Positions 10,878 through 27,040 of a stretch of 40,447 nucleotides of DNA are shown piece by piece. The stretch comes from a virus, in IMG/VR virus record IMGVR_UViG_3300045921_000272, positions 1 to 40,447 of that record. One strand, written 5' to 3'. The position numbers and the translations under genes are program-made. Within the stretch, counting starts at the first letter, position 1. Every line of letters begins with the position of its first letter. The notes under the pieces were generated by a model that saw only the letters and a list, made by a program, of their open reading frames with translations, was not told where the DNA came from and made no database searches.

Positions 10878-13016
10878 TTATCCTTTCTTATACCGGGGTC
10901 CGGCCCACCCTTCTGCCTTTACGGGTAACCCTTCGGCCCACGCCGGAAGTTCGGCCATCAGGGTTTCATACTCTTCGATGGACCCAAAGCCCAAAGGCGC
11001 TTCGGAGATTGCCTCATCGTGTACGGAGAGTAATGGCGTATAACCGGCTTTCTCAATCCGGAGAAACCCTTCAGCCATCAAATCCCGGGATACGGCTTGA
11101 GTGATGTTCTCTGCCAGTTTGCCTCCATAGGTGTCGATTCGGATGTATTGGTTTTTATCGTTGACTCCCATATAGGTCAACTGTTTTTTCGTTTGCCCCC
11201 ACGGGGTTTTGACATCTTTGAGCTTTGGGCGGTGGTAGGCCAGACATCGGCCCGACGGTAACTTAATATGGAGAAACCGCATCTCCCCGCCCCCATTCAG
11301 GAAAAAGACCACCTTGCCGCATCGAATCGGTTTCCCTGTTTGTACGGCTTCAATCGCTGCGTCTTCCAAGTCGTACCAATACTGAACAATCTTTTTTCGT
11401 TTCTCCCGATAGCGTTGTTTCACGATATCAGCGGCCAACCCGTATTCCATTGATACAGGTTCATCGGCTTGATGCTTATAGGCGTTGTATGCCTTCAACG
11501 CTTTTTCCCGCTCTTCGGGAGTTGTAGTTTTCCAGATGAGGGGGTAAACCGGTTCCATATCCAACCGATACGTATTTGCCATTTGAGCATAAGCGGCAAT
11601 CCCGCCTTGATACCCCAACGCCAAGATGCCGACCTTCCCGATTTGCCGCTCTTCAGTGTCTTGTTTGGTTACAACCTTATCATAGATGGTACTGGCTAAC
11701 GCGCAGTACGGGCACTCGTTATTATGGAATTGGTCTAACAGTTCTGTATCGTCGGCTAACCAAGCCAACACCCGGGCTTCAATGGCAGAGAAGTCGGCAA
11801 CAAAGAGTTGGTGTCCTTCCTCTGCGATAATCATTCCTCGAATAATTTCAGCAATCGTATCGGTGACAGAATACAACATTGAAAACGTGTCATAGTCGTA
11901 TTTCATTAAAGCGTCAACCGCTTTATACACATCGACTTTGGGACGGACAAAGTTTTGGGGTTGAACCCCTTTACCGGACCAACGGCCAGTTCGGGCAGCT
12001 CCGTAGTACAACATAGTGTCACGTAGTCTACCATCGGCGCTAACCCGTAACGTCATAGCAACGTACTTGGCAGTAGAGGTTCGACCTAATTGTCGGCGTA
12101 TCTGAAGCGCCCGATATACTTTCTCTGGAAGGAACGGTTCATTCTTATGGCGGGCCAACATCCTATCGACAGTCGCCGCCTGTAAATCAGACATAACAAC
12201 ATTGTGCGCCTCAATCCATTCAATAAAGCGGTTTCGTTGTGTCGGTTTCTCAACATACCCATCGGTAACTCTCTTAAACTCTCTCAGTAAACGGTCTTGA
12301 CAAATTTCAAGATATTCAATTGCACGCTTCACCGCCGGAATATCTAACCGGATACCCCGATGATTTAAACGTTGGTCCATAAACCATATCTCTTGTTCCA
12401 ACGGACGAAGCTCCGGCAGTAAGGTATCGACTTCACACTCAACATCTACGTCGGTCAGGTTGTAGTCATACAGCTTTTGAAAATCTTGAGGAACCACTTC
12501 CGGCTCCCACCAACGACTTGGGTTCAGCTTGGAAGGTTTACGGGGCCGGGCCAGTTTTTGCATCACCCGATGTCCGTCCATATCTTTACGGACATTCAGG
12601 TTTAACACTTCTCCCACCTTTTCTAACTTACGGGGCAACGCATAGAACGCTGCTTTGGCTGCCGTACATCGCCAACGGGGAATCATAATCTCTGGAAAGT
12701 CGTAGCGCTTTACCAGAATTTCTTTCCAGATGTTTTGTTCAAAGAAAGCGTTGTGCGCAACAAACACTACTTCCGGGTCTTCGGCTAAATCAATCAGTTC
12801 CATTATCCGGGCATACTTATCGTACCACTCTTCGGGGTCTGAAAGAGACCAATCAAAAAGGTCTTTTGCCGTTATTAAAACCTTCGGGCCTTTGCCTACT
12901 TTGTAGGTCAAACACAAAACAGAGGTGGAAGGGTGCGCGGCATACACCGCGCTCCCCACCTCTGACACGTCCAACTCAGACCGTGTTTCAAAATCTAGGT
13001 GGACGCGCTTACCCAT
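10878..13016 (-). CDS. DNA polymerase, family A, with 3'-5' exonuclease domain
   Basis: A 712-residue replicative polymerase. The proofreading domain is at residues 1-210: DFETRS at 9-14 with Asp8/Glu10, HNAFFEQN near 88-95, and YNLTDVDVE near 185-193. The polymerase domain has RTGRWSGKGVQPQN at 342-355, motif A DFSAIEARVLAW at 408-419, motif B (O helix) RQIGKVGILALGYQGG at 457-472, and motif C SVHDEAIS at 664-671. This is a complete set, so the enzyme should be active. It would act with the PrimPol-helicase and the DUF2815 ssDNA-binding protein. The ATG at 13016 overlaps the preceding stop by one base (TAATG). Confidence 0.95.
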   Translation of the reverse strand: MGKRVHLDFETRSELDVSEVGSAVYAAHPSTSVLCLTYKVGKGPKVLITAKDLFDWSLSDPEEWYDKYARIMELIDLAEDPEVVFVAHNAFFEQNIWKEILVKRYDFPEIMIPRWRCTAAKAAFYALPRKLEKVGEVLNLNVRKDMDGHRVMQKLARPRKPSKLNPSRWWEPEVVPQDFQKLYDYNLTDVDVECEVDTLLPELRPLEQEIWFMDQRLNHRGIRLDIPAVKRAIEYLEICQDRLLREFKRVTDGYVEKPTQRNRFIEWIEAHNVVMSDLQAATVDRMLARHKNEPFLPEKVYRALQIRRQLGRTSTAKYVAMTLRVSADGRLRDTMLYYGAARTGRWSGKGVQPQNFVRPKVDVYKAVDALMKYDYDTFSMLYSVTDTIAEIIRGMIIAEEGHQLFVADFSAIEARVLAWLADDTELLDQFHNNECPYCALASTIYDKVVTKQDTEERQIGKVGILALGYQGGIAAYAQMANTYRLDMEPVYPLIWKTTTPEEREKALKAYNAYKHQADEPVSMEYGLAADIVKQRYREKRKKIVQYWYDLEDAAIEAVQTGKPIRCGKVVFFLNGGGEMRFLHIKLPSGRCLAYHRPKLKDVKTPWGQTKKQLTYMGVNDKNQYIRIDTYGGKLAENITQAVSRDLMAEGFLRIEKAGYTPLLSVHDEAISEAPLGFGSIEEYETLMAELPAWAEGLPVKAEGWAGPRYKKG

Positions 13017-13564
13017 TAGGCTTCTAACGGCTCCCCGGCAGTAAAGTCGTACAGGTCGTCTTTGGTTTCCTGAACCCCGAATTGGTGGTCGCCGTCGTGG
13101 CTCTCTTCCTCTTTAATCGTAAATGGTGTGGCACTCAGGTCGGTGGTACTCGAAAGGTCGAGCCCAACATCCGGGGCATCGGACTGGGGGTTTTCGTTTT
13201 CCGGATGAAGTCCTGCGGCCACACGCGCTTCGGTAAATTGAGGAGCGGTCTCCGGCATATTGACGGATTCTGTAACAACAGGAATCTCACCAACTTGGAC
13301 TTCGCCCGGTTGCGGCTCCTCAAAAGTGGGAACATTCCCGAACGAACTAGGGTTTAAAGGTTGACCGGGATATTGCATTACAATCGCTTTGATAGCGAAC
13401 ATCCGGGTCAACTCCAAATAATGTTTCGCCGCATCCAGGTGGTCGGTGTGCGGGCACATCGCATCCATTACCGCTTCAAACTCGATGGCCCGAAGCCGGA
13501 TTTGTTCGCAGCGGGCTTTACCCTCGTCATCCGGTGTGTGATTCAAGTGGTCATTGATTGGCAT
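13016..13564 (-). CDS. Probable Acb2/Tad1-type cyclic nucleotide sponge (anti-CBASS) with disordered tail
   Basis: A 182-residue protein. Residues about 14-63 (ARCEQIRLRAIEFEAVMDAM, then PHTDHLDAAKHYLELTRMFA and IKAIV) look like the two-helix hairpin of the Acb2/Tad1 family: a helix, a short loop before a conserved Leu/Ala-rich helix, and a terminal aromatic/Ala-Ile segment. Acb2 proteins form hexamers that soak up cyclic nucleotides and block CBASS defence. Residues 64-182 are acidic, Pro/Glu/Asp-rich and probably disordered, which is longer than usual for the family. It lies two genes from a clear Tad2 homologue, which supports a counter-defence role. The family match is by pattern memory, not a search. 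The start is behind AGAGAAAGGTAAG. Confidence 0.5.
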   Translation of the reverse strand: MPINDHLNHTPDDEGKARCEQIRLRAIEFEAVMDAMCPHTDHLDAAKHYLELTRMFAIKAIVMQYPGQPLNPSSFGNVPTFEEPQPGEVQVGEIPVVTESVNMPETAPQFTEARVAAGLHPENENPQSDAPDVGLDLSSTTDLSATPFTIKEEESHDGDHQFGVQETKDDLYDFTAGEPLEA

Positions 13565-23564: not shown

Positions 23565-23582
23565 AGCGCTTCCGAGAAAGGA

Positions 23583-23711
23583 CTAGAAACCCGGTTGCGC
23601 TGTTAATTCGAGATTCAGTTGTACCGTTTCCCCGTCTTCAGCCTGACACTTCAGGCAATAGGTTTCCCCAGATAAACAGGGTGTTCCGCATTCAAAGCAT
23701 TTTTCGACCAT
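23583..23711 (-). CDS. 42-residue zinc-ribbon miniprotein
   Basis: ATG at 23711, stop TAG at 23583. The protein begins MVEKCFECGTPCLSGETYCL followed by KCQAEDGE and an uncharged end. Cys-x2-Cys-x3-Cys and Cys-x2-Cys form a treble-clef or ribbon zinc site. The arrangement of Cys, a full set of sense codons, and a position exactly between the HTH gene and the terminator make it likely to be real despite its length. Ribosome site candidates are GGAG (spacing about 11) or GAAGACGG. A regulatory role is inferred only. Confidence 0.55.
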   Translation of the reverse strand: MVEKCFECGTPCLSGETYCLKCQAEDGETVQLNLELTAQPGF

Positions 23712-24329: not shown

Positions 24330-24386
24330 GACGTGGACAAGGGAGTAAACCCCTTGTTTCGTCCATTCAGGACTCATCGGCACGTC
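24330..24386 (-). ncRNA. Hammerhead ribozyme C (type I, stem I open)
   Basis: Read leftward: GACGUG (24386-24381), core CCGAUGA, stem II GUCC-UGAAU-GGAC, GAA, stem III ACAAGGG/CCCUUGU with a 7-base loop, C17 at 24336, then CACGUC (24335-24330), which closes stem I with the first six bases. All three stems are perfect. The one departure from the consensus core CUGANGA is C for U4, which may lower activity. The final UGA of the core is the stop codon of the 75-residue gene upstream. Cleavage is expected between 24336 and 24335. Confidence 0.8.
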
Positions 24387-24601
24387 TGGTCATAGTACCT
24401 TTCGCCTACGGCATCTAATTCCATCCTTGCCTTCTTTATCTCTTGTTCCATCCACCATAAAGAGTTGTATACTCGATTTGTGGCCGCCGATTCAAGAGAA
24501 GGGTTTAACCCACTATTCAATGGACTTGATATTAGGATTGCCGCTTCGTTTTGGACGAGTTTCATTTTTTCAAAAATATAATTCCGTTGTTGTTCGTTCA
24601 T
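24374..24601 (-). CDS. Small early protein, stop codon inside ribozyme C
   Basis: A 75-residue helical protein (MNEQQRNYIFEKMKLVQNEA ... SLWWMEQEIKKARMELDAVG). No family recognised. It starts behind AAAGGACTAGAAACA, the leader shared by the early genes. Its last codons (C-R-stop) form the hammerhead core of ribozyme C, which may explain the non-consensus base there. Confidence 0.65.
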   Translation of the reverse strand: MNEQQRNYIFEKMKLVQNEAAILISSPLNSGLNPSLESAATNRVYNSLWWMEQEIKKARMELDAVGERYYDQTCR

Positions 24602-24636
24602 TGTTTCTAGTCCTTTCTGATATGTCTTACTACATT

Positions 24637-24999
24637 TTAATATCCGTACATTTGTTCAAATTCTCGACGGTTTGCGCGTGCTTCCCTTGCACTGTCTCCT
24701 CTTTGGTGTTTTTCGGCAAGGGCTTCAAGGCGCAAGGATTCATCTTCCCACGGTTTCCGGACGCAACCATTCCGGTACAAGTTTCTCCCTTTAATCCGGG
24801 TGGTGGAACCGTCCGGCAATTCAATCGTAAACGTGTGTTGCTGTTTATCGGTTCCGTATGAATCCCGGATAATTTTTCCTTCAACTGTTTCGTAATGGCT
24901 GAATTTGGGTTTTTTGAATGAACCGGTAAAAACGGCTCTATCGAATTTCACATAATCACCAATTACGGCGTCTCCAGTACAATCAATCCAGTTTTCCAT
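24637..24999 (-). CDS. Early protein with SH3-like beta-barrel pattern
   Basis: A 120-residue protein. Residues about 8-80 (GDAVIGDYVKFDRAVFTGSF, VEGKIIRDSYG, QHTFTIELPDGSTTRIKGRN) have the strand pattern of a small beta-barrel; TRIKGRNLYRNG recurs in phage proteins of unknown function. The C terminus is a charged helix. ATG at 24999 is behind AAAAGGACTAGAACA; the longer ORF start (25068) lies inside or before ribozyme B and is rejected. Confidence 0.7.
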   Translation of the reverse strand: MENWIDCTGDAVIGDYVKFDRAVFTGSFKKPKFSHYETVEGKIIRDSYGTDKQQHTFTIELPDGSTTRIKGRNLYRNGCVRKPWEDESLRLEALAEKHQRGDSAREARANRREFEQMYGY

Positions 25000-25035
25000 T
25001 GTTCTAGTCCTTTTCATCATTACTCTGATTCGTAA

Positions 25036-25094
25036 AGCCTCATCAGGTGGCCTGTTTGACCACGACACGCCGGGATTCCCGGCGTGTTTCGGCT
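25036..25094 (-). ncRNA. Hammerhead ribozyme B (type II, stem II open)
   Basis: Read leftward: AGCC (25094-25091), GAA, stem III ACACGCCGGG/CCCGGCGUGU (10 bp, loop AAU), C17 at 25064, stem I GUGGUC-AAACA-GGCCAC (6 bp with one G-U), core CUGAUGA (25046-25040), GGCU (25039-25036), which pairs with AGCC to make stem II. Every conserved core base is present. Stems I and III differ from copy A by paired changes while the core and stem I loop are identical. Cleavage is expected between 25064 and 25063. It overlaps the stop codon of the 138-residue gene. Confidence 0.92.
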
Positions 25095-25509
25095 AGTTCA
25101 TTCTGTAACAGTAGTAAGTCTCTCCATCAATATCAATTTCGTGTTCGTTGTGGTCGTATTGCGCAATAAAATGACCTCTGCCATCAACCGAAACGGCTTG
25201 TTTCACAAAGTCATCAAACCCGCCATCAGCGTTTTCAATACACTGCATAATAGCGTCGTTTGCCCCTTCACACTTGTCCTGAATAGCGGTAAACATCTCT
25301 TCAGGCAATCCGGTAAAATCGGAGAGGAAAGAGGCAGTAAAAGCCCAAACGGATTCCTCGATATACTCTTTAACCGCTTCATCGGCTTCATTGTCTGTAT
25401 ACGCTTTCCAGTCTTCACTATCGTAATAGCTTGCCGCTTCCTCTATGGTGCAATTGGCAGCTTCCCGAATCGCCATAATTTTAATCATTTCATCAGTGGT
25501 GTAAGACAT
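25093..25509 (-). CDS. Acidic early protein flanked by two type II hammerhead ribozymes
   Basis: A 138-residue strongly acidic protein (MSYTTDEMIKIMAIREAANC, IEEAASYYDSEDWKAYTDNE, ... GRGHFIAQYDHNEHEIDIDG, ETYYCYRMN). The C-terminal GHFIAQYD...IDGETYYCYR pattern recurs in small phage proteins of unknown function. Ribozyme A lies just before it and ribozyme B overlaps its TAG stop, so its mRNA would be released as a 517-nt RNA. ATG at 25509 is behind AAAGGACTAGAAACA; the longer start (25560) lies in ribozyme A. Confidence 0.75.
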   Translation of the reverse strand: MSYTTDEMIKIMAIREAANCTIEEAASYYDSEDWKAYTDNEADEAVKEYIEESVWAFTASFLSDFTGLPEEMFTAIQDKCEGANDAIMQCIENADGGFDDFVKQAVSVDGRGHFIAQYDHNEHEIDIDGETYYCYRMN

Positions 25510-25552
25510 TGTTTCTAGTCCTTTCGCTTTTACTATATTCTGATACGCTTTA

Positions 25553-25608
25553 AGCCTCATCAGTACATCTGTTTGATGTAGACACGGGAGTAATCCCGTG
25601 TTTCGGCT
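25553..25608 (-). ncRNA. Hammerhead ribozyme A (type II, stem II open)
   Basis: Read leftward: AGCC (25608-25605), GAA, stem III ACACGGGA/UCCCGUGU (8 bp, loop UUAC), C17 at 25581, stem I UACAUC-AAACA-GAUGUA (6 bp), core CUGAUGA (25563-25557), GGCU (25556-25553) pairing with AGCC. This is a complete consensus hammerhead. Cleavage is expected between 25581 and 25580. The A of the upstream gene's TAG stop is the first base of stem II. Confidence 0.93.
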
Positions 25609-25945
25609 AGTCTGGAATTAACCGTAATGCGGTTTTCTCGTCTATTCCGAAGTTTTCAATGAAATATTGCCGTAATTCGTTGCCGGGATAAGTTTCCGGG
25701 TAATCGTAATACATATCCACAAGATGCGCTATGCATTCGTCAAGGGTGAAAAAGACTTGCCAATCGGTACCATCAAGGTATCCAGGTGCCGAAAGCCTGC
25801 AAGCGTAGTTAGCATCATCGTTCCAGCAAAAATTTACACCGTCCGGTAATTCGATTGAATCCAAGTCTCCGTATATGTCATTGGGTTTTAAACCGGATTC
25901 TTTGATTTTCACTATTTCAGGTTTCTGTAAATCGTCTTGAATCAT
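25607..25945 (-). CDS. First early leftward gene, acidic hypothetical protein
   Basis: A 112-residue acidic protein (MIQDDLQKPEIVKIKESGLK ... FCWNDDANYACRLSAPGYLD ... FFTLDECIAHLVDMYYDYPE). No recognised family. It is the first gene behind promoter 25997-26025 and so probably the earliest phage product, suited to host takeover or anti-defence. The ATG at 25945 is behind AAGGACTAAATCA. Its TAG stop runs into ribozyme A. Confidence 0.7.
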   Translation of the reverse strand: MIQDDLQKPEIVKIKESGLKPNDIYGDLDSIELPDGVNFCWNDDANYACRLSAPGYLDGTDWQVFFTLDECIAHLVDMYYDYPETYPGNELRQYFIENFGIDEKTALRLIPD

Positions 25946-25996: not shown

Positions 25997-26025
25997 TATT
26001 ATGCACGGTAAAAAGTATCTGTCAA
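25997..26025 (-). promoter_or_regulatory. Strong sigma-70 early leftward promoter
   Basis: On the minus strand a perfect -35 TTGACA (26025-26020), then 16-18 bases, then CATAAT/ATAATA/TAATAT (26003-25996). A TACGTTAT motif abuts the -35 at 26026-26033. It would drive the ribozyme operon, with RNA starting near 25990. Confidence 0.75.
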
Positions 26026-26097
26026 TACGTTATGATACGTATCCCTTACAACATAAACAGGATGCGGGTTTCGCCGGGTTAATACGTTATACTACAT

Positions 26098-26393
26098 CTT
26101 ACCCATAAGGGTTGAGGGTAAGGTCAAGGGTAAGGTTAAGGGTAAGGTCGAAAAACCGCTCTATATCTATATTATAGGTATAATCTTACCCTCTTACCCT
26201 TGTTTTAGAGGTGTAAAGTATTTTAGATAGAATATTATACGTGTATAAGAATTTATAAAAGCTCTATAGAAAAGTTTGGGGAAAATTTTAAGGGTAAGAG
26301 GGTAAGGTTTTGCCGGAAACGGTCGTAGGTATTGGGTTTGACGACCTTACCCTTACCTTACCTTTGACCTTACCCATAAGGGTTGAGGGTAAG
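26098..26393. other. Candidate replication origin: symmetric iterons around an AT-rich core
   Basis: Copies of GGGTAAG/CTTACCC surround an AT-rich centre (26202-26289). Three layers are seen. A 25-bp sequence beginning CTTACCCATAAGGG occurs as direct repeats at 26098-26122 and 26369-26393. The arms 26116-26151 and 26341-26375 are near-perfect inverted copies. CTTACCCTCTTACCCTT (26185-26201) is the exact inverse of 26290-26306. Iterons flanking an easily melted region, in the gap between divergent arms, is the classic look of an origin. It has no coding capacity on either strand. Confidence 0.7.
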
Positions 26394-26494
26394 ATTTGTT
26401 TTTCGTGTGCTTCGCGTAAAAACATTGGTGTTTATTGGCTTTTTGCCCTTTTCATTCGATATTCGCGTTATTCAGGTTAAACCTAAAAAGAGAT

Positions 26495-26528
26495 AAAAGT
26501 ACATCGGTTGTGAGTAAAAAGTACATCG
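26495..26528. repeat. Two AAAAGTACATCG repeats 22 bp apart
   Basis: AAAAGTACATCG occurs at 26495-26506 and 26517-26528, start to start 22 bp, so both face the same side of the helix. A related inverted form (AAAATACATCG) lies near 26597. They are likely protein-binding sites beside the origin. Confidence 0.5.
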
Positions 26529-26541
26529 ATTTTGCCCTTTG

Positions 26542-26569
26542 AAAACCCGCATCCGCGTGTCGGGTTTTT
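26542..26569. terminator. Bidirectional terminator-like hairpin in the central gap
   Basis: AAAACCCG (26542-26549) pairs with CGGGTTTT (26561-26568), loop 11 bases. T-runs occur on both strands, so it can insulate the two arms. Confidence 0.65.
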
Positions 26570-26628
26570 CTCGTCGCAACGTTTCACAACGTATCACGAT
26601 GTATTTTAATACGTTTTAATACATTATA

Positions 26629-26817
26629 TTACAACGGACTACGTTTTAGTCGCTTCAATCGGTATAGCGTTTGTCCTGATTGACGTTTGACCGTCTTACC
26701 GTTATTGGGTTTGAGGTGCTTCAATCGGTATAGCGTTGATGGGTCAAGGGGTTTGACGGTGTGATGTTGAGCGGGTTTCGGCCGACGGGGGGCCGGGTTG
26801 TTCGACCCCCTATGCAT
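26629..26817 (-). CDS. Doubtful small basic repeat protein
   Basis: An open frame of about 62 residues from ATG 26817 (longer from TTG 26874), very rich in Lys and Arg, with a repeated TLYRLK(H/R)LK peptide. The repeat follows from a 20-bp direct DNA repeat at 26652-26671 and 26718-26737, exactly 66 bp apart. No good ribosome site is seen. It may be a DNA-binding peptide, or the DNA repeat may be the functional part and the frame accidental. Confidence 0.25.
   Translation of the reverse strand: MHRGSNNPAPRRPKPAQHHTVKPLDPSTLYRLKHLKPNNGKTVKRQSGQTLYRLKRLKRSPL
26652..26737. repeat. 20-bp direct repeat pair
   Basis: GCTTCAATCGGTATAGCGTT at 26652-26671 and 26718-26737. The 66-bp spacing is three times the 22-bp period of the AAAAGTACATCG pair. 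It lies in otherwise unassigned DNA between origin and late promoter. Confidence 0.6.
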
Positions 26818-27040
26818 CCCGACGCGCGGACGTGCCCGAAACGCCGGGACCCCTATATACGTAACAACCTCCAAATTGGAACAACGTATTATAACGTAGT
26901 ACGGAGTGACAAAAATTATAGGTAGTATGTAGCATGATGTATCATCATGTATTATGTAAATCTTTTATTACAAAAAACAGGTGAACCCTGACACCCGATA
27001 TAATGAAAACAGTCTAACCATTCCTTTCTTTCTTACGTAA
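26738..27040. other. Regulatory gap: GC-rich island, then AT-rich leader
   Basis: Bases about 26776-26855 are an isolated GC-rich block with short inverted repeats (for example GTTTCGG with CCGAAAC). It is followed by AT-rich DNA with a TACGTTAT motif (26891-26898, reverse) and TATAAT (26999-27004) that lacks a clear -35. I see no supported gene on the plus strand here. Confidence 0.4.

Follow-up and report, generated by a model that had tools for sequence, protein, structure and literature searches.

What is the RNA structure that overlaps the end of the first gene in the early operon of this phage, and what role might it have on a stop codon? The window considered here is the whole stretch analysed, 40,447 nt of a 40-kb IMG/VR phage record, in which a rightward block carries structural genes (terminase, head-tail adaptor, tail) and a leftward block carries early and replication genes (DNA polymerase, VapE-like primase/helicase, SNF2 helicase, exonuclease, ssDNA-binding protein). 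The structure, ribozyme A, and two further elements, B and C, lie among the first, small genes of the leftward block, downstream of a promoter-like site (TTGACA-16-CATAAT, 11/12; 25998..26025, minus strand) that is a consensus match only and stands just upstream of the first gene. All elements of the operon are on the minus strand, in the order 112-aa gene (25607..25945), A, 138-aa gene (25093..25509, its length counted from an SD-preceded ATG), B, 120-aa gene (24637..24999), 75-aa gene (24374..24601) and C. The 120-aa product carries a DUF7699 domain (Pfam PF24766, E 2.1e-16), while the 112-aa product has no family match and no relatives in IMG/VR. Among named phages, we found no DNA relatives of the operon, and Streptomyces phage Samy, a weak DNA neighbour, gave no hammerhead by descriptor.

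Read along the minus strand, ribozyme A (25553..25608) begins with AGCC (25608-25605) and GAAA (25604-25601), continues through a stem III hairpin (CACGGGA-UUAC-UCCCGUG, 25600-25583) to U16.1 (25582) and C17 (25581), enters a stem I hairpin (UACAUC-AAACA-GAUGUA, 25580-25564), and ends with CUGAUGA (25563-25557) and GGCU (25556-25553). Stem II has 4 bp, stem I has 6 bp, and stem III has 8 bp including A15.1-U16.1. The hammerhead consensus at the three-way junction (CUGANGA, GAAA and UH) appears in both A and B as CUGAUGA, GAAA and UC, and in A stem II is open while stems I and III are closed by loops, as in a type II hammerhead. A sequence-only reading of this DNA had proposed exactly this core and these three stems, and the descriptor, covariance model and fold described below bear it out: judged by its sequence, A is a genuine, complete type II hammerhead with stem II open. 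The cut that the same reading placed between 25581 and 25580, i.e., after C17, agrees with the layout of core and stems, and self-cleavage of A in the phage is predicted.

A descriptor scan of both strands of the 40.4 kb returned exactly two type II elements, A and B, against an expectation of ~0.007 per window: over 150 dinucleotide-shuffled versions of the full 40.4 kb, there was a single match in total (stems of at least 4/6/5 bp). At gathering cut-off, Rfam gave no match in the window; RF02276 (Hammerhead_II), run on a 91-nt stretch containing A, scored 26.8 bits (E 4.6e-4), below its gathering threshold of 37. We also searched the window with a covariance model of our own, for which 45 type II hammerheads were taken from other phage contigs and none from the window. 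A scored 51.6 bits (E 1.6e-14), B scored 49.7 bits (E 6.9e-14) and the next-best match in the window reached 13.4 bits; the E-values are rough owing to a shortened calibration. The covariance-model check suggested earlier thus succeeds with our model, while the Rfam models stay below gathering. Within the 45 relatives, 99.2% of helix cells are paired and the covariation score is 0.703 versus 0.153 when shuffled, which is partly by construction, the relatives having been chosen by a descriptor that requires the stems. The sub-threshold Rfam scores could speak for a chance resemblance to a hammerhead, but the shuffles, the E-value of 1.6e-14 and a second copy ~460 nt away, with both copies at stop codons, make coincidence a negligible prospect. 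The predicted fold of A regains the three-way junction (-21 kcal/mol, z -5.2). When 96 nt of context is included, the fold of lowest energy is instead another, inactive one, though these energies ignore the tertiary core.

In ribozyme B (25036..25094, minus strand) the predicted cut separates 25064 from 25063, and this copy shares bases with the TAG that ends the 138-aa gene (25095-25093) just as A does with the stop of the gene before it. The two copies have the core, the loop and part of the downstream leader in common, a likeness that suggests duplication, while stems I and III have diverged with pairing intact. Such a common origin would also be expected if the copies were decayed, inactive relics of a mobile ribozyme cassette, a history with which one further observation is consistent: the 138-aa protein has relatives in Alicyclobacillus phage KKP_3916 and in contig L120 (52% identity), and the descriptor finds no hammerhead beside the L120 homologue. 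This absence indicates that the ribozyme is not tied to the 138-aa gene. Neither A nor B has lost a catalytic residue, however, and the stems have changed while keeping their pairing, so we regard decay as very improbable.

The leader GAAAGGACTAGAAACAATG occurs identically before two genes of the operon (24599-24617 and 25507-25525, minus strand), the leader behind B is a close variant, and a near copy with 3 mismatches lies at 23576-23594 on the plus strand. At the junction of the 120-aa and 75-aa genes, where no hammerhead was found, the interval 24602-24640 (minus strand) holds ATCAG and the leader motif and may be a lost ribozyme site.

The overlap between A and the end of the 112-aa gene, also noted in the sequence-only reading, is not peculiar to this phage. 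We surveyed IMG/VR by pattern scans with de-duplication, counting only forms that fit fixed patterns, with open frames standing in for annotated genes and with viral contigs that are mutually related; for each hammerhead with usable upstream sequence, the end of the stop codon of the upstream open frame (at least 60 codons) was placed relative to the first base of stem II. Among the matches listed, stop ends fall within 3 nt of stem II in 203/361 type II hammerheads (56%), in 274/489 (56%) of an enlarged set, and in 69 of the 124 of a later set. Random positions in these contigs give 1.6%. Terminator-like hairpins there give 1.7%, and instead peak ~20-40 nt past the stop. Stricter frames give similar values (60% at 100 codons or more and 59% at 150 or more, among the matches listed). 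The rule might have been an artefact of TAG arising from the A|G at the edge of stem II; this was rejected, since enrichment extends to offsets of 0, -1, -2 and -3. From these counts, stop-codon placement is a widespread rule among phage type II hammerheads, and since a stop adjoins or overlaps stem II in hundreds of other phage contigs, the overlap in A is one case of a general architecture. Our search of the open-access literature found no earlier report of such a rule for phage hammerheads. Type I forms provide a variant of it, in which U4-G5-A6 of the core is itself the stop codon (13/75 among the matches listed).

The rule could arise in part from compact packing alone. If a ribozyme in a compact genome simply lies as near the stop as it can, the overlap would have no function of its own, a reading that is compatible with cleavage of the message between genes. 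The modal offsets of 0 and +1 among the matches listed agree with this, for TAA, TGA and TAG can supply the A at -1 and the G at +1 that the structure favours. Terminator-like hairpins of the same contigs, on the other hand, are unanchored and keep their distance from the stop, which weakens the argument from packing, and the space behind the ribozyme is looser than the space ahead of it, the next SD-preceded start peaking 15-35 nt past the ribozyme (both among the matches listed). We consider packing as the full account possible, at clearly less than even odds; stop-codon placement could equally be of use for tight packing and for end protection.

The median distance from stop end to the base of stem III is 7 nt among the matches listed, a span that the footprint of a terminating ribosome would be expected to cover, and a ribosome on the embedded stop might therefore mask stem II and the GAAA strand and block cutting, so that cleavage would report translation of the upstream gene. 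Two further features are in keeping with such a switch: the overlap includes the stop codon and seldom reaches deeper into the coding frame (of the 489 listed, 2 lie at +4 and few go further), and an alternative fold of A joins the stop-codon strand to the upstream coding sequence. By inspection, however, that upstream pairing is absent from B; the same placement serves packing, and the ribozyme could fold co-transcriptionally ahead of the ribosome. Ribosome-dependent cutting is compatible with the stop-codon geometry, but a switch gated by termination seems unlikely to us.

How closely the stop codon is built into the ribozyme can be seen in A. Its TAG (25607..25609, minus strand, the end of the 25607-25945 frame) supplies not just the first base of stem II, as had been supposed when the overlap was correctly recognised, but the outer two, A25608 and G25607. 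The remaining base, U25609, covaries with A25574 of loop I, for which we predict a tertiary contact. The class to which A and B belong has a 4-bp stem II and a 17-nt stem I hairpin, and lacks the pseudoknot of other type II forms. Among the first 155 members of this class listed, loop I nucleotide 1 and base -1 are U and A in 140 cases and A and U in 14, with one exception (Fisher 4e-20 for these 155), although neither position is part of the descriptor. A fresh scan, run as a test of this prediction, yielded 59 new members among the matches listed, all of which follow the rule and 20 of which have the form seen in A and B; overall, 215/216 of those listed conform, and the swap is present in contigs with quite different stems. 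In A and B, base -1 is the U of TAG and the first loop I nucleotide is A, so each of the three stop-codon bases seems to have a use in the ribozyme, with U as a putative contact and A and G as stem II pairs.

A pattern restricted to the AAACA loop matched one other contig, L048, which is the sole exception to the loop-flank rule. When genome contigs were scanned for the TAGCC form, two matches were obtained: L429, in which three copies with U at -1 likewise have A at loop nucleotide 1, and L430, which failed the descriptor. L429, a contig assigned to a Lokiarchaeota MAG, has four type II hammerheads and may be an archaeal virus or else a mis-binned phage. In A and B themselves, no pseudoknot between loop I and the 3' tail was found, as neither tail (UAAAGCG, UUACGAA) contains a complement of AAACA, and the class with stem II of at least 4 bp has no overall excess of loop I-tail pairing among the matches listed.

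A second element lies downstream. The pentamer AUCAG follows A at 25540..25544 (minus strand), where it is complementary to the core CUGAU (25563-25559), and follows B at 25025..25029 (minus strand). Within 20 nt past stem II, AUCAG occurs in 41/324 of the listed hammerheads whose stem II has at least 4 bp, compared with 4.7 expected from shuffled tails, whereas it occurs in 1/181 of those listed with a 3-bp stem II, such that the enrichment is confined to the former class. The 5' end of the downstream product is predicted to form two hairpins, of which the second, just behind stem I, is made by AUCAG. Since stem II alone keeps the products joined, AUCAG may aid their parting and hinder re-ligation; it could alternatively compete with folding of the ribozyme before cleavage.

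Taken as a whole, we favor the view, at a probability of roughly three in four, that A and B are functional hammerheads for co-transcriptional dicing of the early mRNA. Lying in the promoter-proximal early operon, each would fold and cut as RNA polymerase proceeds, severing the polycistronic message ~26 nt past the upstream stop codon. The upstream message would end in a strong stem III hairpin (8-10 bp) bearing a 2',3'-cyclic phosphate, predicted at -12.8 kcal/mol (z -4.4), while the downstream message would start with a 5'-OH inside the base-paired stem I hairpin, its ATG 36-43 nt past the ribozyme, so that both new ends may be protected. After the cut, the freed core CUGAU could pair with the AUCAG behind it, helping to open the 4-bp stem II and rendering the cut irreversible. 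As the stop codon is itself a ribozyme part, no base would be wasted and the ribozyme would intrude no further into the coding sequence than the stop. The stop-codon rule points to a role in cutting long messages into single-gene pieces, and series of as many as 9 ribozymes at gene-length spacing among the matches listed are in line with dicing as the purpose; the inactive lowest-energy fold of A in its 96-nt context, L120 with its homologue but no hammerhead, and the 120-aa/75-aa junction without a ribozyme may be counted against it.

A bolder, rather unlikely extension of dicing would make phage type II hammerheads stop-codon-anchored devices, in which termination and dicing are physically coupled because the stop codon does work within the ribozyme, in stem II and in the loop contact, with AUCAG as the release hairpin of the pseudoknot-less class. 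Were dicing coupled to translation, it would offer a ribozyme-based way to uncouple the genes of one operon. PMC6155905 still treats the function of bacteriophage hammerheads as an open question, and the placement rule, the two-state loop-flank contact and the anti-core element make it testable.

Elements of the A/B kind are already known, since type II hammerheads, and clusters of them flanking single prophage genes, were described in 2011 (Perreault et al., PMC3088659). In that report, clusters from Agrobacterium tumefaciens, Azorhizobium caulinodans and Clostridium scindens were tested (its Figure 3), clustered phage hammerheads cleave within ~2 kb polycistronic RNAs in vitro, one cluster does so in E. 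coli, and the dicing idea is already put forward. A and B resemble those type II forms (RF02276) in their core, open stem II, phage intergenic site and frequent occurrence of several per operon, and the prophage clusters likewise place several ribozymes in a row around small genes. They differ from RF02276 in lacking the pseudoknot (in PMC3088659, ~40% of hammerheads have one between loop I and the tail) and in their 4-bp stem II, 17-nt stem I hairpin, AAACA loop, U on both sides of stem II and sub-gathering score. The stop overlap, loop-flank swap and downstream AUCAG were not found in the passages of the 2011 report considered here, in whose text the term "stop codon" has 0 occurrences. Its Figure S6 legend mentions a type I hammerhead of Pseudomonas phage PaP3, in which, by eye, the presumed stem I strand begins directly past the annotated orf67 stop; this hammerhead failed our strict descriptor and differs from A and B in type, core variant and phage group. 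Five phage contigs (L010, L219, L274, L018 and L465) carry 4-9 hammerheads in a row at gene-length spacing, and in L010 just 3/9 copies pass RF02276 gathering, at 37-39 bits. With A and B also below gathering, their subclass is probably under-counted.

A relaxed scan added a third element, ribozyme C (24330..24386, minus strand), a probable type I hammerhead with the core CCGAUGA (U4C) and a predicted cut between 24336 and 24335. Its closest Rfam family is RAGATH-1-hammerhead (RF03152), from which it differs by U4C and by a score of 24.9 bits, below the gathering threshold of 56.3; its predicted fold has -21.3 kcal/mol (z -2.9). The TGA stop (24376-24374) of the 75-aa gene forms U7-G8-A9 of its core. 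Because U4C is also found in 7 further hammerheads that have strong stems, while U4A and U4G occur in none (among the matches listed), C is probably real.

Elsewhere in the window, the non-coding interval between the divergent gene blocks (26080-26960) is origin-like: it contains iterons of the TAAGGGTAAGGT type, repeats of the ACAACGTAT type and long inverted repeats whose 46-nt arms are 78% complementary. A 182-aa protein encoded at 13016-13564 (minus strand) weakly resembles the Acb2/Tad1 hairpin domain (22.2 bits versus a cut-off of 27) and is a possible counter-defence protein.
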